A DNA stretch of 64,000 bases from an uncultured Hyphomicrobiales bacterium (GTDB lineage Bacteria > Pseudomonadota > Alphaproteobacteria > Rhizobiales > Xanthobacteraceae), in contig CAISIV010000018.1 in assembly GCA_903885555.1 (NCBI GenBank), forward strand, positions 49,049 through 113,048. The letters are read 5' to 3'. A program made the translations under genes and the position numbers. Numbering within the stretch: the stretch's first letter is position 1; every line of letters starts with the position of its first letter. Positions 4,471-17,650 of the stretch are shown in pieces. The notes under the pieces were generated by a model that worked only from the letters and a program-made list of their open reading frames with translations, was not told the origin of the DNA and did no database searches.

Positions 4471-4812
4471 CTACTTCAACAACGGGATGCTGTTGGGGTC
4501 TTTCGGCTTCGGCACGGTGTGCAAAAAGGCATAGATGTCCGCGAGATCCGCGCTCGGCAGGATGGCTTCCCGGTAAGGCGGCATCGCCCGGTTCGTGCCG
4601 CGCACGAAGCCTTCGAAAGCTTCAAACGGCAGCTCTGTATTGGACAGAACCGCGCCATTGCTGGTGACGGCTGAGCCCTGGCCCTCGAAACCGTGGCACT
4701 GCCAGCAACCGTGGGCGACAAAAGCCTTGCGGCCGTTCTCCGGCGACGCCGCCTGCGCCGCGCCGGCGGCAAACGCACAAGCAGCGACGATCAATGCAAC
4801 GCGAATTTTCAT
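4471..4812 (-). CDS. Periplasmic c-type cytochrome (class I)
   Basis: MKIRVALIVAACAFAAGAAQA signal peptide and CWQCH haem c motif (DNA 4693-4707); distal Met in NRAMPPY. Confidence 0.88.
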   Translation of the reverse strand: MKIRVALIVAACAFAAGAAQAASPENGRKAFVAHGCWQCHGFEGQGSAVTSNGAVLSNTELPFEAFEGFVRGTNRAMPPYREAILPSADLADIYAFLHTVPKPKDPNSIPLLK

Positions 4813-4838
4813 GGCGTTTCTCTTTTTTCTTCTTCGCG

Positions 4839-6824
4839 CTAGCGCGGCTGCGTCCATACGTTGAGCAATGCAGGCTGGCCGGATTTGACCACCGCGATTG
4901 CTTCTTTGAGGGCGGGTCCGAGATCCGCCGGATCCTTGATCGGCCCCTTCGCCCACCAGCCCATCGATTCCGCGAGCTTGTGATATTCAATGTCGGGATT
5001 TTCGATCGAGGTGCCGAGCGGCGACAGGTCGTTGCCATTGTAGACGACGCGGTTGCGGAAATTCGCCAGCCGCTGCACGTGCATCACTTCCTGATGATAG
5101 CCGCGGTTGTTGTGCATGACGGACAGCAGCGGAATCTTGTGCCGCGCCGCCGTCCACAACACGCCCGGTGCATACATCAGATCGCCGTCGCCCTGGATAG
5201 AGACCGAGAAGCGGCCGAGGTCGCGGTTCGCCAAAGCCGCGCCGACGGACGCGGGCGCGCCGTAGCCGACGCCGTAGCCGCCGGAGCGGCCGAGCCAATG
5301 ATGGTGCTTCTCCATCGGCCACAGCCGGTTCGGCCAGTTGCTGACATTGCCTTCGGAAGCCACCAGCGACCAGTCGAGATCCTTGATCTGGCCCCACAGT
5401 TCCATACAGAGGCGCGCGGTGCTGATCGGGCTCGCATCCCACGAAAGCGCCGCGGCTTTGCGCACGTTCTCGCGGCCATTGGCGGAAGCCTTGCGGAAAG
5501 CTTCGCCGCGCTTGGCGATGGCATCCTTGCGGCTGTCGGGAATGGCGGACTTCACCGCCTCGATCAGCGCCGGCAGCGTGGCTTCGGCGTCGGCCGGCAT
5601 CGACACATCGACGACCTGGAAGCGCTGGAAGTCCTGATAGTTCGATTTGGTGATCAGTTCGACCGAGTTGATGCTGATCAGCTTGGTGCCCGGCTTGATC
5701 TTGGTTTCGTTGAAACCGATGCCGTGATCGCCATTGTCGACGTAACCGTTCACCACGGCCCAGAAATCGGACAACTCCATGCCGATGATGACGTCGGCCG
5801 GCCCGATCACATTCGGCGGCCGATTAAGATAATGCGTCTTCGGGAAGTTCATCCGGCCGCCCTGATCGACGACGGCAGCCTGCAGCAATTCGGCAAGCTC
5901 GACGAGCAGCTTGATGCCGTTCGGCGTGCGCGCGGCGCGATCGACGACGATCACCGGGCGTTCTGCATTGACGAGCAGCTTCGCCGCCTCCTTGACCGCA
6001 CCGGTATCGCCCTGCGGCGGCGAACTCGGCACGTAGCGTGGAATGTAGAGCTTCTCGCCGCCGTAATCGCGCATCGGCTCCTGCTGCAGACCGGCGTCGA
6101 GCGACATCATCACCGGCCCGTAGGGCGGCGTCATCGCCGTCTTATACATACGCACCATCGACTGCGCGAAATGTTGCGGCGATGTCGGCGTGTCGTCCCA
6201 TTTGGTGAAGTCGCGCACCAGCGCATTGATGTCCTGCGCCGAATGGAAGGTCGGCACGCCCGGCGGGCGATGTGCAGCATCGAGATCGTTGCCGCCAACG
6301 ACAATCACCGGCACACGGTCGCACCAGGCATTGTAGATGCCCATCGCCGCGTGCTGCAGACCGACAGTGCCGTGCACCAGCGTCATCAGCGGCTTGCCGG
6401 CGATCTTGAAGTAGCCGTGCGCCATGCCGACGGCCGACTCTTCATGCATGCAGGTCAGGAATTCGGGGCTCGTGTTCTTGCCGTAGTCGATCAGCGACTC
6501 ATGCAGCGCGCGGAAGCTCGAGGCCGGATTGCAGGGCAGATATTTGATGTCGAGCGTCTTGATGACGTCGACCATGAAGTCGGAGCCGGGCTTACCGCCT
6601 TCGTGCTTGAGTTCTGCCGGCGTACCGGTCTCGGCGGCGGCCATTTTAGCGGTCGGTGGCAAGGCGGAAGGCCGCGGCGACGCGGCGGGCGTCTCGGCCG
6701 ATGTGGCAGCATTGGCGCCTGGAGCGGCCGTAACCGCCGCGCCTGCCACCGCCACGCCCGTCAGAAAATTACGTCGATTGAGTTTGGTCTGAGAATCGTC
6801 GCGTCCCAGATCTTTACGTGCCAT
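4839..6824 (-). CDS. Thiamine-pyrophosphate-binding enzyme (acetolactate synthase/benzoylformate decarboxylase-like) with N-terminal Tat signal
   Basis: NRRNFLTGVAVAGAAVTAAPGANA twin-arginine signal; HEESAVGMAHGY (catalytic Glu region); GDGDLMYAPGVLWTAARHKIPLLSVMHNN (GDG...NN TPP motif). Confidence 0.88.
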   Translation of the reverse strand: MARKDLGRDDSQTKLNRRNFLTGVAVAGAAVTAAPGANAATSAETPAASPRPSALPPTAKMAAAETGTPAELKHEGGKPGSDFMVDVIKTLDIKYLPCNPASSFRALHESLIDYGKNTSPEFLTCMHEESAVGMAHGYFKIAGKPLMTLVHGTVGLQHAAMGIYNAWCDRVPVIVVGGNDLDAAHRPPGVPTFHSAQDINALVRDFTKWDDTPTSPQHFAQSMVRMYKTAMTPPYGPVMMSLDAGLQQEPMRDYGGEKLYIPRYVPSSPPQGDTGAVKEAAKLLVNAERPVIVVDRAARTPNGIKLLVELAELLQAAVVDQGGRMNFPKTHYLNRPPNVIGPADVIIGMELSDFWAVVNGYVDNGDHGIGFNETKIKPGTKLISINSVELITKSNYQDFQRFQVVDVSMPADAEATLPALIEAVKSAIPDSRKDAIAKRGEAFRKASANGRENVRKAAALSWDASPISTARLCMELWGQIKDLDWSLVASEGNVSNWPNRLWPMEKHHHWLGRSGGYGVGYGAPASVGAALANRDLGRFSVSIQGDGDLMYAPGVLWTAARHKIPLLSVMHNNRGYHQEVMHVQRLANFRNRVVYNGNDLSPLGTSIENPDIEYHKLAESMGWWAKGPIKDPADLGPALKEAIAVVKSGQPALLNVWTQPR

Positions 6825-6999
6825 GCCGGCCTCCCATCGCTTCCAACTTTGAACGCTGGACTTGCCCGGTCAGATTCATGACCGGAGGCCAGCTGTTGGC
6901 GCGATGGTAGTGCAGGCGTCAGCGCCCCGCTACGGGGGCACCTATTCTTTTGTGCGCACGGCTTGATATCCGAAAAATATCCGTGTCGCGGCCGTGGAA

Positions 7000-8064
7000 C
7001 TAGCGAACCGGCGGCAACGGTTGCGACGAGATCGCCGGACCCGCGGCACCGGCAGAAGCCGGAGCGTTCGCGCGCGGCGGCGGCGCCATCGGGTTTGCCG
7101 GCTCCGGCGGCGCGCCGGAGTTTGCAATGGCATCGGGCGCCTTGCCCGGCAACACGACGACGCGGGTGCCAACCTGTACGCGGCTGAACAGATCCTCGAC
7201 ATCCTGATTGAGCATGCCGACGCAACCGGACGACACGTACTGGCCGATGGTCGACGGCTGGTTGGTGCCGTGAATGCGATACAGCGTCTTGCCGAGATAC
7301 ATCGCGCGCGCGCCGAGCGGATTGCCGGCACCACCGGCCATGAAGCGCGGCAGATAAGGCTGGCGCTCGATCATTTCCGCCGGCGGATGCCAATCGGGCC
7401 ATTCCGTCATCTTGCTGATACGTTCGGTGCCGGTCCAGGTGAACCCGTCGCGGCCGACGCGAACGCCGTAGCGCATCGCCTTGCCGCCGCCGAGCACGAG
7501 GTAGAGATACGTATTGGCCGTATCGACAACGATGGTGCCGGCCGGCTCCTTGGTCGAGAAGTCGACCAATTGTTTTTTCAGATGGGCCGGCAGTTCCTTC
7601 GGCGCGCCGGTTTCCGGCTGATCGTCCGGCGGCAGCGTCGCAACCGATGCCGGAGCAGCCGGTGCCGTCGCCGCGGGCGAATTTGCTGCGGGCCCGGGCA
7701 CAGCCGATCCGATAGCGCCCGGCGGACGCATCACAGGGTCGGCATCGAGCTGGTGACCGGACTGCGCGTCCGGCAGGATATTGCTCGGCATATTACCGGG
7801 CTGCTGGGCCTGCGCGGGCATCGGGTTCTGACTGAACTGCGGACGGCGCTGTGGCAACTGTCTCATCGGCGCCAGATCGTCATCGTCGTCTTCCATCAGA
7901 TAACCGGGAGCCGGCAGACGCTCGTCGCGATAGGTGCCGGGGAGCGGCGCGGCCCGGAAATAGGGCTCAGGCGCCGGACGATAAGTCTGCGCCAGCGCAG
8001 TGGTGGCCGGAACAGCCAAGAGCGCAGAACCTGCCAGCAGAAAGAAGCCGAGACGTCGGATCAT
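7000..8064 (-). CDS. L,D-transpeptidase (YkuD domain)
   Basis: IHGTNQPSTIGQYVSSGCVGMLNQDVEDLF matches the HGT...SxGCVRM catalytic motif; signal peptide and Pro/Ala-rich N-terminal region. Confidence 0.92.
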   Translation of the reverse strand: MIRRLGFFLLAGSALLAVPATTALAQTYRPAPEPYFRAAPLPGTYRDERLPAPGYLMEDDDDDLAPMRQLPQRRPQFSQNPMPAQAQQPGNMPSNILPDAQSGHQLDADPVMRPPGAIGSAVPGPAANSPAATAPAAPASVATLPPDDQPETGAPKELPAHLKKQLVDFSTKEPAGTIVVDTANTYLYLVLGGGKAMRYGVRVGRDGFTWTGTERISKMTEWPDWHPPAEMIERQPYLPRFMAGGAGNPLGARAMYLGKTLYRIHGTNQPSTIGQYVSSGCVGMLNQDVEDLFSRVQVGTRVVVLPGKAPDAIANSGAPPEPANPMAPPPRANAPASAGAAGPAISSQPLPPVR

Positions 8065-8225
8065 ACTATTTTTACCTGTCAGCCAAATCGGGCCGAAAAA
8101 GCCCCGAAATCGTGCCTTGGATTGCCCAAGGATGAAGGCACATTCAAGACAAGATTGGGGCTATCTCAGTAACGTGATTCTGCCGTGACGCGTGAGCAAC
8201 ATCATTCCAGCGGCCCGGCCCTTCG

Positions 8226-8609
8226 TCAGGCCTTTTTGGCCTCCTCGGCCAGCACTTTCTTGGCGATGCGATGGGCGTCGACCGCAGCTGGAAACCCGCA
8301 ATAAATCGCGACTTGCCGCAGAATTGCAGCCAATTCGACCTCGGTGACCCCATTCCGCAGCGCGCCCTTAAAATGCGCCTCGAATTCGTGCATGCGGCCG
8401 AGGCAGGCGATCATGCCCATATTCAGGATGCTGCGGTCACGGGGTTTGAGGCGGTCGTCGCCCCAGACTGCCCCCCAAGCGAACTCGTTGAGCATATCCT
8501 GGAAGTCGCGATTGAAGTCGTCGGTATTAGCGACGGCCCGATCGACGTATTCATCGCCCAGCACTTGGCGCCGCATCTTCAGACCGCGGTCGTACATTGC
8601 CTTGTCCAT
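8226..8609 (-). CDS. Carboxymuconolactone decarboxylase family protein
   Basis: MDKAMYDRGLKMRRQVLGDEYVDRAV...EFEAHFKGALRNGVTEVELAAILRQVAIYCGFPAAVDA; RBS GGAGGAAAAACC before ATG. Confidence 0.9.
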   Translation of the reverse strand: MDKAMYDRGLKMRRQVLGDEYVDRAVANTDDFNRDFQDMLNEFAWGAVWGDDRLKPRDRSILNMGMIACLGRMHEFEAHFKGALRNGVTEVELAAILRQVAIYCGFPAAVDAHRIAKKVLAEEAKKA

Positions 8610-8729
8610 GGTTTTTCCTCCGTTTTGGGCGGGTTGTTCCGCCGATCGGGGTGATGTTGACAGAAAATGGCCGATCCCGTCCATTCAGGCCAAACGCGAT
8701 GCGGCAAGGAAGTTTCCAAGGAAACCTGG

Positions 8730-9953
8730 ATGGAAGTAGCGATCATCGGCGGCGGGATTTGCGGCCTCGCTCTCGCACTCAATCTGCACAAGCGCGGCAT
8801 TGCCTCGCGCATTTACGAACGCGCGCCGGAGATCAAGCCGCTCGGGGTCGGCATCACGCTGCTGCCGCATGCGATGCGCGAATTCACCGCGTTGGGCGTT
8901 GGCGACCTGTTGCTCAAGGCCGGCATCGAGAACCGCGAGAGCGCTTTCTTCAATCGCTTCGGCCAACTGATCTACAAGGAAGAACGCGGACTGTTCGCCG
9001 GCTATCAATTTCCGGAAGTCGGTATCCATCGCGGCACGTTGCATCTCATATTGTTTGAAGCCGCAAAGACGAAGCTTGGCAGCGACGCCATCGTGCTCGA
9101 CCACGAGTGCACCAGCGTCGAGCAGGACGACAATGGCGTTACGATTCATTTCAAGGACCGCGACAGCGTGCGCGCCGACGTGGCCATCGCCTGCGACGGC
9201 ATCAACTCGCCGATCCGCAAACAATTTTATCCGGACGACAAGCTTGCCTTCGCCGGCATCAATACCTGGCGCGGCGTGACGCGGCGCAAACCGATCCTCG
9301 ATGGCCGGACTTACATGCGGGTCGGATCTATTTTCACCGGCAAGATGGTGATCTATCCGATCGTCGACAATATCGACGACGAGGGCCGCCAGCTCATCAA
9401 TTGGATGGCCGAGATCAAGGGGGATTCCCCACTTCAGAACGACTGGAATAAGCCCGGACAACTCACGGATTTCCTCTCGATCTACGAGAACTGGCGCTTC
9501 GACTGGCTCGACGTCGGCCAGATGATCCGCGACGCCGACCAGATCCTGGAATATCCGATGGTCGACAAGGACCCGATCGATACCTGGACATTCGGCCGGG
9601 TGACGCTGGCCGGCGACGCCGCCCACCCGATGTATCCGCGCGGCTCGAACGGCGCGGCGCAGGCCGCCATCGACGCCCGCACGCTGGCGGACCTGCTGCG
9701 CAACCACACCGACCCGCGCGACGCTCTCAAGGCCTACGAGGCCGAGCGCGCCCAGACGGCGGCCAAAGTGGTGCGCACCAACCGGGAATTCCCGCCGGAT
9801 TTCATTAATATCAAGGTCGAGGAACTGGTCGGCGACAAGCCCTTCGAGAACCTCGACAAATTCATCACCCAGGACGAATTGAAGGCGCTATCGGACAATT
9901 ACAAACGGATCGCCGGTTTCGCGCTTTCCGACGTCACGCCGCGGAACTTTTAG
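8730..9953 (+). CDS. FAD-dependent monooxygenase (salicylate hydroxylase-like)
   Basis: MEVAIIGGGICGLALALNLHKRG; GDAAHPMYPRGSNGAAQAAIDARTLADLL. ATG 8730 preferred over the upstream in-frame start at 8667. Confidence 0.9.
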   Translation: MEVAIIGGGICGLALALNLHKRGIASRIYERAPEIKPLGVGITLLPHAMREFTALGVGDLLLKAGIENRESAFFNRFGQLIYKEERGLFAGYQFPEVGIHRGTLHLILFEAAKTKLGSDAIVLDHECTSVEQDDNGVTIHFKDRDSVRADVAIACDGINSPIRKQFYPDDKLAFAGINTWRGVTRRKPILDGRTYMRVGSIFTGKMVIYPIVDNIDDEGRQLINWMAEIKGDSPLQNDWNKPGQLTDFLSIYENWRFDWLDVGQMIRDADQILEYPMVDKDPIDTWTFGRVTLAGDAAHPMYPRGSNGAAQAAIDARTLADLLRNHTDPRDALKAYEAERAQTAAKVVRTNREFPPDFINIKVEELVGDKPFENLDKFITQDELKALSDNYKRIAGFALSDVTPRNF

Positions 9954-10119
9954 CCGGACATTTAGTTGAATTATCTCAATGGCTTGCGCTGCCGTTGATG
10001 ATTTGCCCCGGATTTCCCCGTAATCCCGGCAAGCACAGGTTTTCGCACCGCCACACGTTTATCGGATAGGCCAGGCATTACTATGGACGGACCTTCCGGA
10101 TGGCGGCATTCAAACCTCA

Positions 10120-10713
10120 ATGGCTGACAGCGACGACGCCACTGACCCAGCGCGCATCGACGAAGCGCGCAGAGACGAAGCGCTTATGGCCCAGGTCGCG
10201 CGTGGCGATGAGGCGGCGTTCCGCCAGCTCACCCGGCGCCATCTGCCGGCCATGGTCGGGCTTGCCCGGCGCGTTCTCGGCAATGCCGCCGACGCCGAAG
10301 ATGTCGCACAGGAAGCCATGCTGCGTGTCTGGACGCATGCACCGCATTGGCAGCCGCTCGCGGCATTCCGCACCTGGCTTACGCGCATCGTGGTCAACCT
10401 CTGTCTCGACCGCAAACGCCGCAAGCCCTGGGTCGCGCTCGACGCCGCCGGCGAAATCGTCGATCCGACACCAGGCATTCCGGAAATCGCCGAACGAAAT
10501 GAGCGCGAGCATGCCCTCACCGCGGCGATTGCCGAACTGCCGGACCGCCAGCGCACCGCCATCCTCCTCACCTACAGCGAGGGCATGAGCAATGCGCAGG
10601 TCGCCGAAGCGCTCGATACGTCGGTGTCCGCAGTGGAAACCTTATTGATACGCGGCAAAAAAAGTCTGCGCGCCAAACTGGGCGCCATGATCGACGGGGA
10701 CGAAGACCAATGA
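10120..10713 (+). CDS. RNA polymerase sigma factor, ECF/sigma-70 family
   Basis: LARRVLGNAADAEDVAQEAMLRVW (region 2) and LPDRQRTAILLTYSEGMSNAQVAEALDTSVSAVETLLIRGKKSLRAKL (region 4). Confidence 0.93.
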   Translation: MADSDDATDPARIDEARRDEALMAQVARGDEAAFRQLTRRHLPAMVGLARRVLGNAADAEDVAQEAMLRVWTHAPHWQPLAAFRTWLTRIVVNLCLDRKRRKPWVALDAAGEIVDPTPGIPEIAERNEREHALTAAIAELPDRQRTAILLTYSEGMSNAQVAEALDTSVSAVETLLIRGKKSLRAKLGAMIDGDEDQ

Positions 10714-11078
10714 ACGAAAATAAAATGGACGACACACAGTTCGAGCAATTGCTCAAAACCGCCTTGAAGCCCGGTCCCTCCGCGCAGCGCGACGATCAGG
10801 CCGCGGCAGATCGCGTGCTCAAGCGTCTGGCCGGTCCGCTGCCGCGCCAGCAGATGGCGTGGTGGCGTCTGCCCGCGGTGCTGCTCGATTGGGAATTCGC
10901 CCCGGCCTGGCCGCGCGTCGCCGCGCTGGCCACCTGTGCCGCGCTTGGTTTTGCCATCGGCCTCATCGGCATCGACCGGCAGGTCGATACCGCCGACGCG
11001 GCGCTGGCCTATGTCAGCCGCGCCGACATCGCCGCCGGCCTGTTTGAAGGCGAATTGCCGCACGGAGAACGGCGATGA
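10710..11078 (+). CDS. Putative anti-sigma-like single-TM protein
   Basis: 122 aa with one TM (VAALATCAALGFAIGLIGI); ATGA overlap with the sigma gene and 4-nt overlap with the next gene. Confidence 0.6.
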   Translation: MNENKMDDTQFEQLLKTALKPGPSAQRDDQAAADRVLKRLAGPLPRQQMAWWRLPAVLLDWEFAPAWPRVAALATCAALGFAIGLIGIDRQVDTADAALAYVSRADIAAGLFEGELPHGERR

Positions 11079-11557
11079 GCACCCTGCAACTGTCGCCATC
11101 GATGATGGCGCGCGGCTCGTCGCGCTGGCTGCTGCTCGGCTCGCTGGCGCTCAATTTGTTCTTCGTTGGTATCGCGGTAGCACTGGCGATCCGCGCTCCG
11201 GCGCCGCCATCCTGGGACCGCAATGTCTTCGTGCGTGTCGACCGTATCGCCGCCAGCTTGCCGCCGGCCGACGCCGACCTGTTGCGCGGCCAGATCAAGG
11301 CCAACCGCGACAATATCGAGACGACGCAATCCGGTTACCGGTCGGCTCAGGATACGATCCGCACCATGCTGCGCCAGGAGCCGTTCGATGTGGCGGCCGT
11401 GCAGGCGGCGATGGCGAAAGCCCGGCTCGCGCGGCAGAATTTCGACCAGTCCATCCAGGCTGTTTTCGCCACGACTGCGGCGCAAATGTCGCCTGCCGGA
11501 CGCCAGGCTCTGGCCGACTGGCCGCCAGGCCGGAAAACAGCGGGAAACCCACAATAA
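11075..11557 (+). CDS. Periplasmic heavy-metal-sensor/CpxP-like membrane-anchored protein
   Basis: 160 aa, N-terminal TM (WLLLGSLALNLFFVGIAVALAI), then helical periplasmic region with QSGYRSAQDTIRTMLRQEPFDVAAVQAAMAKARLARQNF typical of this family. Confidence 0.75.
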   Translation: MSTLQLSPSMMARGSSRWLLLGSLALNLFFVGIAVALAIRAPAPPSWDRNVFVRVDRIAASLPPADADLLRGQIKANRDNIETTQSGYRSAQDTIRTMLRQEPFDVAAVQAAMAKARLARQNFDQSIQAVFATTAAQMSPAGRQALADWPPGRKTAGNPQ

Positions 11558-11726
11558 TTGCGATGCTTAAGCGACGTTCTGGGCTAGTTTCTCCCTCGCC
11601 CAAAGTGGCTTCAGTCAGTCTTTGAAAGTTTTCGTTATGCGTAGTTGTTGTGGTGTTGAGTGGCGGCAAGGAAAGCGGGATGGAACGCGAGATGGAACTC
11701 TTGCGGGCTCTCGCTCGTTGCGAACC

Positions 11727-13112
11727 ATGCTGCTGGGTTTGTGCCTCACGCTGCCGCTCGGTGGCTGCCTTCTGACGGACAAGCCCGAACCCGGGCTCGA
11801 CATTCCGCAAACCTATGACCGCAGCTCGCCCAATCCGGCGATCGCCGAAGCGGCGCTGCCGCCGCTGGACTGGTGGCGCGGCTTCCGCTCACGTGAACTC
11901 TCCGAAATCATCGAAGAGGCGCGCGCCGCCAACCTCGACATTGCCGCAGCCGTCGCCCGCATCGTGCAGGCCGACGCGCAGGCGCGCATCGCCGGTTCGG
12001 CCCTGCTGCCGGTCGTCGACCTCGACGGCAACGCCACGCGCTCGCATGCCGCGGAGACCAATACCAAGGTGGTGCGCGCGTCCTTGACCGCAAGCTACGA
12101 GATTGATTTCTGGGGCAAGAACCGCGCGGCGCTGCGCGCTGCCGAACAAGCCGCCGTCGCCAGCCGCTACGATCGTGAAGTCATCGGCCTGTCCACCGTG
12201 GCTGCTGCCGCCAATGCCTATTTCCAGGTGCTCGCGGCGCAGGACCGCCTGCAGGTCAATCGCGAGAACGTCGCCAGCGCCAGCCGCGTGCTCAATCTGA
12301 TCCAGCAGCGGTTGAACGCCGGTACGGCGTCCGCGCTCGACACCGCGCAGCAGGAATCCCTGCTCAATACGCAGCGCGCTGCGCTGCCATCTCTCGAACA
12401 ATCACTGACGCAAAACCGCAACGCACTGGCCCTGTTGCTGGCGCGCTCACCGGAGAGCGTGCGCATCCGGGGCGGCTCATTACGCAGTATTTCGTATCCG
12501 CGTGTGACGCCCGGGTTGCCGTCCGAGCTTCTGGCACAACGCCCCGACATCCGTGAGGCCGAAGCCCTGCTCGCCGCCGCCAATGCCAATGTCGAGAATG
12601 CCCGCGCGCAATTCCTGCCCAGCATCTCCATCACCGGCGAAGGTGGCTATTCCAGTGCAGTGCTCAAGACGCTGCTGCGGCCGGAGTCCGCGCTGTACAA
12701 TGTCGGCGTCGGCCTGACGCAACCGATCTTTGACGGGCTGCGGCTTCAGGGAAATCTGGATCTGACAAAAGGCCGTCAAGACGAACTGCTGCAGAACTAT
12801 CGCAAGTCGGTCATTTCCGGTTTTGTCGACGTCGAAAATGCGCTCGATGCCGTTCGGCAGGCGAGTTTGCGTGAACGCCTGCAACGCGAGGTCGTCACCA
12901 GTTCGCAGCGCGCCTTCGACATTTCGGAACAGCGCCTGAACCAGGGCACCATCGATCTGGTCACCGTGCTGCAGACCCAGCAGACCCTGTTTCAGGCGCA
13001 AGACAATCTGGTGCAGGCGCGGCTCGCCCATGTGCAGGCGATCGTCAGCCTCTATCAGGCACTTGGCGGCGGCTGGCTGCCGAAGCCGGTGGAGGCTTTA
13101 AATGCACGGTGA
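11727..13112 (+). CDS. Outer-membrane efflux lipoprotein (NodT/TolC family)
   Basis: MLLGLCLTLPLGGC lipobox; TASYEIDFWGKNRAALRAAEQAA and GLTQPIFDGLRLQGNLDLTKGRQ. The ORF opens at TTG 11622; ATG 11727 gives a clean lipoprotein signal. Confidence 0.88.
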   Translation: MLLGLCLTLPLGGCLLTDKPEPGLDIPQTYDRSSPNPAIAEAALPPLDWWRGFRSRELSEIIEEARAANLDIAAAVARIVQADAQARIAGSALLPVVDLDGNATRSHAAETNTKVVRASLTASYEIDFWGKNRAALRAAEQAAVASRYDREVIGLSTVAAAANAYFQVLAAQDRLQVNRENVASASRVLNLIQQRLNAGTASALDTAQQESLLNTQRAALPSLEQSLTQNRNALALLLARSPESVRIRGGSLRSISYPRVTPGLPSELLAQRPDIREAEALLAAANANVENARAQFLPSISITGEGGYSSAVLKTLLRPESALYNVGVGLTQPIFDGLRLQGNLDLTKGRQDELLQNYRKSVISGFVDVENALDAVRQASLRERLQREVVTSSQRAFDISEQRLNQGTIDLVTVLQTQQTLFQAQDNLVQARLAHVQAIVSLYQALGGGWLPKPVEALNAR

Positions 13113-14442
13113 GCTGCCCAAGCAACTGATACAGGGTGCAACGCGGGATAAACGCCGCGTATTCGTCATTGGTCTGATCGTCATCGCGATCGCCGCGGCG
13201 CTGATCTATTACTTCACCGGTTCGACCGAAACGCAACGCCGCAGCCGCTTCGGTGGCGAAGGCGGTCCGGTGCCGGTGCTTGTCGCGCCGGCCGCCAAGG
13301 CCGACGTCCCGGTCTATCTCGACGCGGTCGGCACCACCAAGGCGCTCAACACCGTGACGGTGAAGGCGCAGGTCGACGGCAAGCTGATCGAAGTCGCCTT
13401 CAAGGAAGGTCAGGACGTCAAGCGCGGCGACGTGCTGGCCCGTATCGACCCGACCACCTACAAGGCCGCGCTCGATCAGGCCGTCGCCAAGAAGGCCCAG
13501 GATCAGGCGCTGCTCGCCAATGCCAAGAACGACCTGGCGCGTTACGAACAGCTCGCCGCCACCAACGCCATCAATCGCCAGCAGGCCGACACGCAGAAAT
13601 CGCTGGTCGCGCAATATACCGCGCAAGTCGATTCCGATCAGGGCGCGATCGAAAGCGCGCAGGCGACGTTGGCTTACGCCACCATCCGCTCGCCGCTCGA
13701 CGGCCGCACCGGCATCCGTCAGGTCGACGAAGGCAATATCGTGCGAGCATCCGACGCCACCGGCGTCGTGACGCTGACGCAGCTGCAACCGATCTCGGTG
13801 CTGTTCAACCTGCCGCAGCAGGAGATCAGCCGCGTCAACACTGCCTTCAGCAGAGGGCCGCTAACCGTCGACGCCTTGCGCTCCGATAATGACGCCGTGG
13901 TCGACAGCGGCACCTTGAGCGTGGTCGACAATCAGGTCGACTCCACCACCGGCACGGTCAAGCTCAAGGCCGAATTCCCCAATGCCACGCTGCAACTCTG
14001 GCCCGGCCAGTTCGTCAATATCCGGCTGCTGATCGACACGCTCAAGCAGGTCGTGACGATCCCGACCGGCGCGGTGCAGCGCGGGCCGACCGGCACTTTC
14101 GTCTACGTCGTCAAAGACGAAAACGCCGTAACGATCCGCCCGATCACCGTGCAAAAGCAGGACGAAAACCAGACCGTCGTGTCGAAGGGCCTGGAATCCG
14201 GCGAGCGCGTCGTCACCACCGGCTTCGCGCGCCTGACCGACAACGCCAAGATCGCAATCAGCAGCGGCGACGGCACGGCCGCGCCCGGCGTCAACCGCCA
14301 GCGCGGCACGCGCACACCGGGCGAAAAGAGCGACCGCAAACGGGGCAGCGGCGAGACATCACCGAACGCATTGCAAGGTGCGTCTCCTGGCGGCGCGGCA
14401 CCCGGCACCACACCGAGCGCACCGCCCGCCGCGCCGAAGTGA
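13102..14442 (+). CDS. mdtA: RND efflux periplasmic adaptor (MdtA-like)
   Basis: VLVAPAAKADVPVYLDAVGTTKALNTVTVKAQVDGKL...; order adaptor-RND-RND as in mdtABC. Confidence 0.88.
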   Translation: MHGELPKQLIQGATRDKRRVFVIGLIVIAIAAALIYYFTGSTETQRRSRFGGEGGPVPVLVAPAAKADVPVYLDAVGTTKALNTVTVKAQVDGKLIEVAFKEGQDVKRGDVLARIDPTTYKAALDQAVAKKAQDQALLANAKNDLARYEQLAATNAINRQQADTQKSLVAQYTAQVDSDQGAIESAQATLAYATIRSPLDGRTGIRQVDEGNIVRASDATGVVTLTQLQPISVLFNLPQQEISRVNTAFSRGPLTVDALRSDNDAVVDSGTLSVVDNQVDSTTGTVKLKAEFPNATLQLWPGQFVNIRLLIDTLKQVVTIPTGAVQRGPTGTFVYVVKDENAVTIRPITVQKQDENQTVVSKGLESGERVVTTGFARLTDNAKIAISSGDGTAAPGVNRQRGTRTPGEKSDRKRGSGETSPNALQGASPGGAAPGTTPSAPPAAPK

Positions 14443-14452
14443 GGGAGCGCGC

Positions 14453-17400
14453 ATGAGCGTCTCCTCGCCTTTCATTCATCGTCCGATCGCCACGTCGCTC
14501 CTTGGCGTCGCCGTCATGCTGGGCGGCGCGCTGGGCTACTGGTGGCTGCCGGTGTCGGCGCTGCCGCAGGTCGACTTCCCGTCGATCCAGGTGACGACGC
14601 AACTGCCGGGCGCCAATCCCGACACGATCTCCGCGCTGGTGACCTCGCCGCTGGAAACCCAGTTCGGCAAGATCCCAGCGATGCAGGCGATGACCTCGTC
14701 GAGCTCGTTCGGCATCAGCCAGATCACACTGCAATTCGACCTGTCGCGCGATATCGATGCCGCGGCGCAGGACGTGCAGTCTGCCATCAATGCCGCCGGT
14801 TCAACGCTGCCGAAAAACCTGCCCTACCCGCCGCTGTATTCGAAAGTGAACCCGGCTGACGCGCCGATCATCACGCTGGCGCTGACGTCGAAGACCGTCG
14901 ACCAGCGCAGTTTGAGCGACATGGCCGACACCATCATGGCGCCGCGGCTGTCGGAAGTGACCGGCGTCGGCCGCGTCTCGGTGCAAGGCGGCATCCGCCC
15001 GGCAATCCGCATCCAGGCCGATCTGTCGCGGCTCGCCGCCTACGGTATCGCGTTGGAGGATCTGCGCACGGCCATTGTCGGCGCCAACGTCGCCGGCGCC
15101 AAAGGAGCGCTCGACGGCGCGCATCAGTCCTACACCATCGCCGCCAACGACCAGATTACCAGCGCGGCGGCTTACAAGGCGATTACCGTGGCGTTCCGCA
15201 ACGGCGCGCCGGTTCTCCTCAGCGATGTCGCCGACGTGGTGGACGGGCTGGAGAACACCAAAGTCGGTGCCTCCTACGCTGGCGGGCCAGCCATCGTCAT
15301 CGACGTGCAGCGCCAGCCCGGCGCCAATGTGATCGAGACCGTGCAGCGCGTGCAGGCCGAATTGCCGCGGCTGCGGCGATCGATTCCCGCGGGCGCCCAG
15401 CTCACCGTCATCAACGACCGCACCACCACCATCCGCGCCTCGATCCACGACGTGCAGTTCACGCTGGTGCTGTCGATCGCGCTCGTCGTGCTGGTGGTTT
15501 TGGTGTTCCTGCGCACCATACGCGCCACCATCATCGCCGGCGTGGCGCTGCCGCTGTCGCTGATCGCGACCTTCGGCGTGATGTGGTTCTGCGGATTCTC
15601 GCTCGACAATTTGTCGCTGATGGCGCTGACCATCGGCACCGGCTTCGTGGTCGACGACGCCATCGTCATGATCGAGAACATCGTCCGCCATATCGAGGAC
15701 GGCGAAAGCCCGCTGGAAGCAGCCCTCAAAGGTGCCAAGGAAATCGGCTTTACGGTAATTTCGCTGACCTTATCGCTAATCGCGGTGTTCATCCCGCTGC
15801 TGTTCATGACGGGCCTCGTCGGCCGCATGTTCCGCGAATTCGCCCTGACCCTGACTATCGCCGTCGTTGCGTCAGCCGTCGTCTCGCTGACGCTGACGCC
15901 GATGATGTGCGGCCGGCTGCTGCGGTCGCACGGCACCGAGCGCAAACCTGGACCGTTGTCGGAACGCTTCAACGGCTACGTCGAACGCACCATCGAGCTC
16001 TATCACCAGAGCCTGCTGTGGGTGCTCAAGCGCCAGCGCGCGACGCTCTGGGTAACGCTGGCGACGCTGGCCGCTACGATCTTCCTCTACATCGTCATGC
16101 CGAAGGGCTTCCTGCCGCTGCAGGATACCGGCGTGATCACTGCGGTCACCGAAGCCGGCACCGACGTATCGTTCGCGGAAATGCAGCGCCGCCAGAAGCA
16201 GGTCGAGGACTTGCTCCGCGCCGACCCGGACGTCGTCAGCGTCGTGTCGGTGATCGGCGTCAGTACCCTGAATACGTCACCCAATGCCGGGCACATCTCG
16301 ATCACGCTGAAGCCGCGCGAAGAGCGCAGCAACCGCGTCGAGACCATCATCGGCCGGCTCAAGGACGCCGTCGGCCACCTGCCGGGCATGACGGTCTACT
16401 TCCAGGCGACGCAGGACATCCAGATTTCGACGCGTGCGGCCCGCGCGCAGTATCAGTACACGCTGGTCGGCACCGATTCCGCCGAAGTGGTCGAATGGGC
16501 CGACAGACTGACGCGCAAGCTGCGTAGCGAACCGCAATTCCGCGAAGTCGCATCCGAAGCGCAGGAAGGCGGGCCCCGCGTGCTGGTCGACGTCGACCGC
16601 GAACAGGCCGGCCGCCTTGGCGTGTCGATGCAGAGTATCACCGACACGCTCAACGATGCCTTCGGCCAGCGCCAGATTTCCACCATCTATGGCCAGGCCA
16701 ACCAGTATCGCGTCATCCTCGAGGCGCAGCCGCGCTATCTGCAGGACCCGACCTCGCTCGGCAAACTCTACGTCACCGGCGCCACCACCAGTAACGGCAC
16801 GGCGGCGACCGTGGCCAATACGGCGAGCGGTACGACGAATACCAACACCACCGCGACGCCGAACACCGTGACCGGCTCCAACCAGGTGCCGCTGTCGGCC
16901 TTTGCGCGCTTCACCTACACCTCGGCGCCGCTGACGATCGCGCATCAGGAGCAGTTCCCCTCCATCACCATCAGCTTCGACCTCGCGCCCGGCTATGCGC
17001 TGAGCGACGCAGTGACGCTGATCACCAAGGCACAGAATGACATCGGCATGCCGACCTCGGTGACCGGCACCTATTCGGGCGACGCCGCCGAATTCGCCAA
17101 ATCGCTGGCGGGCGAACCGTGGCTGCTGCTCGCCGCCGCCATCACGATCTACATCGTGCTCGGCGTGCTGTACGAAAGCTTCATCCACCCGCTGACCATT
17201 CTCTCCACGCTGCCTTCGGCCGGCGTCGGCGCGCTGCTGGCGCTGATGCTTTTTGGATATGATTTGTCGGTGATCGCGCTGATCGGCATCGTGCTGCTGA
17301 TGGGCATCGTGAAAAAGAACGCCATCCTGATGATCGACTTCGCGCTCGAGGCCGAGCGCAATGAAGGCATGTCGCCCGAGGAGTCCATCGTCCAGGCGGC

Positions 17401-17650
17401 GTTGCTGCGCTTCCGTCCGATCATGATGACGACGCTGGCCGCTCTGTTCGGCGCGCTGCCGCTGGCGCTGGAAGGCGGCACCGGCTCCGAACTGCGCAAT
17501 CCGCTCGGCGTCTCGATCGTCGGCGGCCTGCTGCTGAGCCAGTTGCTGACGCTCTACACCACGCCGGTGATCTACCTGTACATGGAACGGCTGCGCGCAC
17601 GGCTCAGCCCGTTGCCGCCGCGGGCGCCGCGCACTCAGCCGGCCGAGTAG
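14453..17650 (+). CDS. mdtB: RND efflux permease (MdtB-like)
   Basis: MSVSSPFIHRPIATSLLGVAVMLGGALGYWWLPVSALPQVDFPSIQVTTQLPGA; full-length HAE1-type RND. Confidence 0.9.
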   Translation: MSVSSPFIHRPIATSLLGVAVMLGGALGYWWLPVSALPQVDFPSIQVTTQLPGANPDTISALVTSPLETQFGKIPAMQAMTSSSSFGISQITLQFDLSRDIDAAAQDVQSAINAAGSTLPKNLPYPPLYSKVNPADAPIITLALTSKTVDQRSLSDMADTIMAPRLSEVTGVGRVSVQGGIRPAIRIQADLSRLAAYGIALEDLRTAIVGANVAGAKGALDGAHQSYTIAANDQITSAAAYKAITVAFRNGAPVLLSDVADVVDGLENTKVGASYAGGPAIVIDVQRQPGANVIETVQRVQAELPRLRRSIPAGAQLTVINDRTTTIRASIHDVQFTLVLSIALVVLVVLVFLRTIRATIIAGVALPLSLIATFGVMWFCGFSLDNLSLMALTIGTGFVVDDAIVMIENIVRHIEDGESPLEAALKGAKEIGFTVISLTLSLIAVFIPLLFMTGLVGRMFREFALTLTIAVVASAVVSLTLTPMMCGRLLRSHGTERKPGPLSERFNGYVERTIELYHQSLLWVLKRQRATLWVTLATLAATIFLYIVMPKGFLPLQDTGVITAVTEAGTDVSFAEMQRRQKQVEDLLRADPDVVSVVSVIGVSTLNTSPNAGHISITLKPREERSNRVETIIGRLKDAVGHLPGMTVYFQATQDIQISTRAARAQYQYTLVGTDSAEVVEWADRLTRKLRSEPQFREVASEAQEGGPRVLVDVDREQAGRLGVSMQSITDTLNDAFGQRQISTIYGQANQYRVILEAQPRYLQDPTSLGKLYVTGATTSNGTAATVANTASGTTNTNTTATPNTVTGSNQVPLSAFARFTYTSAPLTIAHQEQFPSITISFDLAPGYALSDAVTLITKAQNDIGMPTSVTGTYSGDAAEFAKSLAGEPWLLLAAAITIYIVLGVLYESFIHPLTILSTLPSAGVGALLALMLFGYDLSVIALIGIVLLMGIVKKNAILMIDFALEAERNEGMSPEESIVQAALLRFRPIMMTTLAALFGALPLALEGGTGSELRNPLGVSIVGGLLLSQLLTLYTTPVIYLYMERLRARLSPLPPRAPRTQPAE

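Follow-up and report, generated by a model that had tools for sequence, protein, structure and literature searches.

ThDP (TPP) enzymes of the family considered here are textbook cytoplasmic proteins, and we know of none shown to work in the periplasm together with a cytochrome c. PoxB and pyruvate:ferredoxin oxidoreductase, both cytoplasmic and mediated by FAD or Fe-S, oxidize ThDP intermediates and feed an electron carrier, as we propose below for a gene pair whose carrier would differ in being a periplasmic cytochrome c. Benzoylformate decarboxylase (BFD/MdlC) and benzaldehyde lyase share their domain order with the enzyme described here, in which E128 and H151 align with Glu47 and His70 of BFD, but both are distant from it in sequence (~20% identity, with the BFD model scoring below its cut-off); to our knowledge, neither has a Tat signal or a cytochrome partner. 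The sister clade of our enzyme is formed by cytoplasmic PRK08327-related thiamine pyrophosphate-binding proteins (30-38% identity), which have the invariant DGD…NN in common with it, whereas they have no Tat signal, no downstream heme gene (0/50), Trp instead of Asn at position 395, and other residues after NN. A similar gene layout is found in SorAB-type sulfite dehydrogenase, a periplasmic molybdenum enzyme with an adjacent gene for its cytochrome c partner (PMC2864759), in which the cofactor is molybdopterin rather than ThDP; the SorAB-type layout also occurs in one of our sampled loci (L120). Scytonemin ScyA was considered as a precedent for an exported ThDP enzyme and rejected, since its predicted site of action is on the cytoplasmic side (PMC2726228). 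A literature search, with thin coverage of subscription journals, retrieved no exported ThDP enzyme and no ThDP-cytochrome pair. As far as we found, the superfamily is known, and its export together with an obligate cytochrome partner is undescribed.

The ThDP enzyme and its cytochrome neighbor

The gene pair lies in a 64,000-nucleotide stretch of an uncultured Hyphomicrobiales bacterium, hereafter the window (Table 1). The Pfam domains TPP_enzyme_N, TPP_enzyme_M and TPP_enzyme_C (PF02776, PF00205 and PF02775) all exceed their curated cut-offs in the first protein and, together with the catalytic Glu and the DG…NN Mg2+ motif (E128, D546, N573), place it in the ThDP-dependent decarboxylase superfamily. 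No curated NCBIfam model reaches its own cut-off on this enzyme: the best one, PRK08327 (NF006203), scores 213 bits against a cut-off of 456, while benzoylformate decarboxylase (NF005485) scores 155.6 against 493 and acetolactate synthase (ALS, TIGR00118) 118.8 against 538. By these cut-offs the enzyme is a member of neither of the latter two families, to which the wording “ALS/BFD-type” in an earlier note on this DNA alludes. The AlphaFold model has a mean pLDDT of 86.8, with only the signal region (residues 1-43) below 50. A Foldseek search with it ranks the FAD-bearing glyoxylate carboligase first and also has benzaldehyde lyase and ALS among its best matches, with target-based TM-scores of 0.76-0.81. 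The best PDB matches by sequence are BFD and benzaldehyde lyase, at the ~20% identity given above. A 695-aa plus-strand ORF covering the whole ThDP gene (window 4794-6881) was discarded as an antisense shadow in high-GC sequence, as codon scoring calls the minus-strand gene only.

Table 1. Positions in the window of the ThDP enzyme gene, its predicted signal and active-site residues, and the cytochrome c gene
Feature	Position	Strand	Basis
ThDP (TPP) enzyme with predicted Tat signal, 661 aa, PYR-TH3-PP domain order	4839..6824	-	Pfam, AlphaFold, Foldseek
Predicted Tat signal region (residues 1-39, MARKDLGRDDSQTKLNRRNFLTGVAVAGAAVTAAPGANA), perhaps cut at an AxA-type site around residue 39	6708..6824	-	Sequence, RR conservation, TatC
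H127-E128-E129; E128, predicted ThDP-activating Glu (BFD Glu47 position)	6438..6446	-	Alignment to BFD chains
H151, aligned with BFD His70	6372..6374	-	Alignment, conservation
D546-G547-D548 to N572-N573, Mg2+/diphosphate motif	5106..5189	-	Invariant in 72 homologues
H571…H577-Q578-E579, beside NN; set the Tat clade apart from cytoplasmic relatives	5088..5114	-	Alignment
Small class I cytochrome c, CWQCH, M77-P-P ligand region, Sec signal, 113 aa	4471..4812	-	PF13442 + PF00034, family alignment

The conserved RRxFL motif of the N terminus (NRRNFL, residues 16-21), a hydrophobic stretch and a TatC encoded in the same genome make the enzyme a predicted Tat substrate with a clear signal of standard form. 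Its stop codon is separated by 26 intergenic nt from the start of the signal-bearing CWQCH cytochrome on the same strand, as the earlier note had described, with the distance given there as 27 nt. Cytochrome_CBB3 (PF13442) and Cytochrom_C (PF00034) both score above cut-off in this second protein, and its signal peptide, CxxCH motif and Met ligand agree with them in identifying a class I cytochrome c; a structure model was of low confidence (pLDDT 70) and was left unused. When 37 genomes were searched with a profile of the cytochrome family, strong matches were obtained only in four (G000, G010, G011 and G018), all of them holders of the enzyme.

The roles of Glu47 and His70 in BFD have been described (PMC6028569). 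The corresponding Glu, E128, is found in 41 of 42 diverse members of the clade that carries the Tat signal (hereafter the Tat clade) and is replaced by Asp in one; H151 is conserved as well, and in the DGD…HNN of the enzyme (residues 546-548 and 571-573) D546, G547, D548, N572 and N573 do not vary among the 72 homologues aligned. Where the earlier note had listed HEE and GDG…NN motifs in an apparently active enzyme, HEE, DGD and NN are indeed kept and the first Gly of “GDG” is variable in the clade; the retention of the predicted catalytic residues is strongly supported by their conservation across phyla. Beside NN, the Tat clade has its own residues, namely H571, H577 and Q578 (41/42 each) and E579 (42/42), at positions where cytoplasmic homologues show A/Y, F/Y, N and D, respectively, and position 395 is Asn in the Tat clade versus Trp in 30/30 cytoplasmic rows. 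Such clade-specific residues around NN and at N395 indicate that the Tat clade would have changed in function, and not merely in address. An orthologue with 93% identity (L045:9977-11968, genome G010) has Asp (GAC) at the position of Glu128, which may reflect natural variation, decay of this copy or a mistake in the assembly.

Conservation and distribution of the pair

Seven further genomes of the genus hold orthologues at 65-93% identity. We sampled the best 80 of 231 loci, which belong to Rhizobiales, Burkholderiales (including cultured Limnohabitans), Rhodospirillaceae and Acidobacteriota, as well as two diverged members on Caballeronia and Novosphingobium plasmids and one from the class-wide sample. 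An RR signal is found in 91/91 Tat-clade members with an intact N terminus, at 42-93% identity, in Alpha- and Betaproteobacteria and in Acidobacteriota. An automatic Tat rule scored 89 of the 93 members with at least 40% identity as positive; among the four that it missed, two are cut by the end of their contig (L077, L112) and two have the RR, with a hydrophobicity below the threshold (L111, L125).

Directly 3′ of the ThDP gene, a small CxxCH gene was found in every one of the 89 clade members with at least 350 nt of downstream sequence. It starts near the stop codon of the ThDP gene, mostly with a 4-nt overlap (ATGA-type) or a spacing of 7-16 nt, and its heme motif is mostly CWQCH, CWGCH, CYECH or CYQCH. 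In contrast, a Tat signal and a downstream heme gene are both lacking in 50 of 51 distant homologues (at most 38% identity, with adequate flanks), and the remaining one, L097_2, is the only one of the 51 to have the heme gene and also the only one to have the signal. As a background, a small CxxCH gene follows 4 of 1,120 other genes called in the sampled loci, and these four cases include two other Tat-ThDP genes (L097, L120) and one SorAB-type molybdopterin oxidoreductase. Signal and cytochrome are conserved together far more often than chance would allow (89/89 versus 4/1,120), 89/89 not being a count of independent events because the members mostly descend vertically.

The earlier note had stated that its proposal would fall if the Tat signal and the cytochrome neighbor were unconserved in orthologues, and had suggested following the gene pair across genomes. 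Both features are conserved (91/91 and 89/89), and the co-occurrence of the genes separates the Tat clade (89/89) from its cytoplasmic relatives (0/50). The prediction of Tat export from RR signals across phyla thus withstood this test; predicted export and cytochrome pairing are both strongly supported, and conservation across phyla strongly supports a functional coupling of the enzyme to the cytochrome. A search for a fusion of a ThDP enzyme to a heme domain gave no hit.

When 88 homologues were placed in a tree by a quick method, the Tat members grouped in a single clade (SH-aLRT 95), with the cytoplasmic homologues on its other side and L097_2 apart. The tree shows one origin of the main Tat clade, as judged from the sampled proteins; little can be said on an independent origin of L097_2, because the tree is a quick one and the branch is long. 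The clade is rare and patchy, with 2 of 385 random genomes of the class, the window's own included, and no member beyond the window's own genome in a random sample of 399 genomes of the phylum. The pair was found in soil and freshwater Rhizobiales, in Burkholderiales (including the cultured Limnohabitans sp. 15K) and in Acidobacteriota.

Two loci contain additional genes of this kind. In L097, a second, highly divergent Tat-signalled ThDP enzyme (7328-9913; 26% identity to that of the window, on its own deep long branch) has a small cytochrome directly downstream, is flanked by two CxxCH genes, and lies directly upstream of a standard Tat-ThDP/cytochrome pair; no relatives of it were found in 399 sampled genomes. 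In L120, an alphaproteobacterial MAG, three tandem Tat-ThDP genes (7265-14834) each have a heme gene downstream, and a molybdopterin oxidoreductase/cytochrome pair is located further along (~20.6-21.9 kb).

Possible mechanism and competing explanations

The earlier note had proposed a periplasmic oxidation that passes electrons to cytochrome c. The export signal and the pairing speak for this proposal, and the oxidative role is plausible. The reading that we favor, by a little over even confidence, is a two-gene periplasmic module in which a 2-oxo acid (or acyloin) oxidoreductase would use a cytochrome c of its own to oxidize the ThDP intermediate; the direct transfer from ThDP to heme and the class of substrate are parts that we infer. 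In such a module, the enzyme would fold, bind ThDP/Mg2+ and probably dimerize in the cytoplasm before its export by Tat, as the conserved signal suggests; dimer assembly before export is probable because the ThDP sites of this family sit between subunits. In the periplasm, its attack on a 2-oxo acid (or on a related acyloin) would release CO2 and lead to a ThDP-bound carbanion/enamine, as expected from the family and from the conserved residues. Where protonation of this intermediate would yield an aldehyde, the cytochrome c encoded next to the enzyme may instead withdraw two electrons from it, one at a time; the acyl-ThDP would then be hydrolyzed to yield a carboxylate, and the reduced cytochrome would hand its electrons to a terminal oxidase. 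In DXP synthase, another ThDP enzyme, electrons of the C2-alpha-carbanion pass to O2 and to small or artificial oxidants, and redox dyes likewise serve PDH as electron acceptors (PMC11908136). In several genomes, an aldehyde dehydrogenase gene adjoins some of the cytoplasmic homologues, which fits a decarboxylation to the aldehyde followed by its oxidation; cytochrome c occupies the place of this dehydrogenase in the Tat clade, from which we infer that oxidation could take place on the ThDP intermediate.

A narrower version, which we regard as possible and advance tentatively, describes a flavin-free respiratory ThDP enzyme that Tat would export as a cofactor-loaded oligomer and that would pass the electrons of the ThDP carbanion one at a time to a dedicated cytochrome c (a 2-oxo acid:cytochrome c oxidoreductase). 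Several points count against the main reading: every FAD-free ThDP decarboxylase known to us from this branch is non-oxidative and cytoplasmic, the catalytic Glu is changed to Asp in one 93%-identical relative, and the members descend mostly vertically, as noted above. Another explanation, which we consider unlikely, has a non-oxidative decarboxylase or C-C lyase exported to yield a periplasmic aldehyde, with the cytochrome working for a separate aldehyde or alcohol dehydrogenase of the periplasm whose gene lies elsewhere. The closest solved relatives (BFD, benzaldehyde lyase and glyoxylate carboligase) are non-oxidative, and the aldehyde dehydrogenases that adjoin cytoplasmic homologues in several genomes would also agree with this explanation, yet no conserved gene for a periplasmic dehydrogenase was found beside the pair in the sampled loci, while the cytochrome follows the ThDP gene every time.

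The enzyme could also carry FAD, as pyruvate oxidase and ALS do, and transfer electrons from ThDP through FAD to cytochrome c as an exported analogue of pyruvate oxidase. We judge this quite improbable: the central domain PF00205 is present and Foldseek puts an FAD-bearing enzyme, glyoxylate carboligase, at the top, but the top matches by sequence, BFD and benzaldehyde lyase, are FAD-free. That the enzyme works in the cytoplasm, with an N terminus that has lost its function or stays on as an uncleaved anchor, and with the cytochrome as an unrelated neighbor, appears very improbable to us in spite of the length of the N-terminal region and its low confidence in the AlphaFold model: the RR motif, the hydrophobic stretch and the cytochrome are conserved together across phyla, at identities as low as 42%, and cytoplasmic relatives have neither Tat signal nor cytochrome. 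If the two-gene oxidoreductase reading is correct, the oxidation of 2-oxo acids or acyloins would take place outside the bacterial cytoplasm, the electrons would enter the cytochrome c pool directly, with neither substrate import nor NAD being needed, and Tat would export a ThDP-loaded, probably oligomeric enzyme.

Genes around the pair

Clustering the neighbors of the sampled loci revealed no third conserved gene beside the ThDP-cytochrome pair. Neighbors that recur in a minority of loci are tripartite tricarboxylate (TctC) receptors, Amidohydro_2 and UbiD/UbiX, as well as FAD-dependent aromatic hydroxylases/monooxygenases and a LigXa-type Rieske oxygenase; by their predicted families, they suggest a setting of aromatic or carboxylic acid catabolism. 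The MAPEG and aromatic hydroxylase genes, which the earlier note had listed as following the system, turned out to be local neighbors: each is nearby in only 4 of ~81 genomes, all close relatives (the hydroxylase being counted at at least 45% identity), and neither was retained as part of the system. Further along in the window (10120-17650), an ECF sigma factor gene, with short ORFs downstream of it, precedes an OEP/HlyD/AcrB RND efflux set; L046 has this ECF/RND-efflux order close to its ThDP gene, and L045 has the ECF part of it. In L102 and L104, ORFs at ~2.7-6.0 kb, near the Tat-ThDP pair, resemble by eye a two-subunit ThDP decarboxylase.
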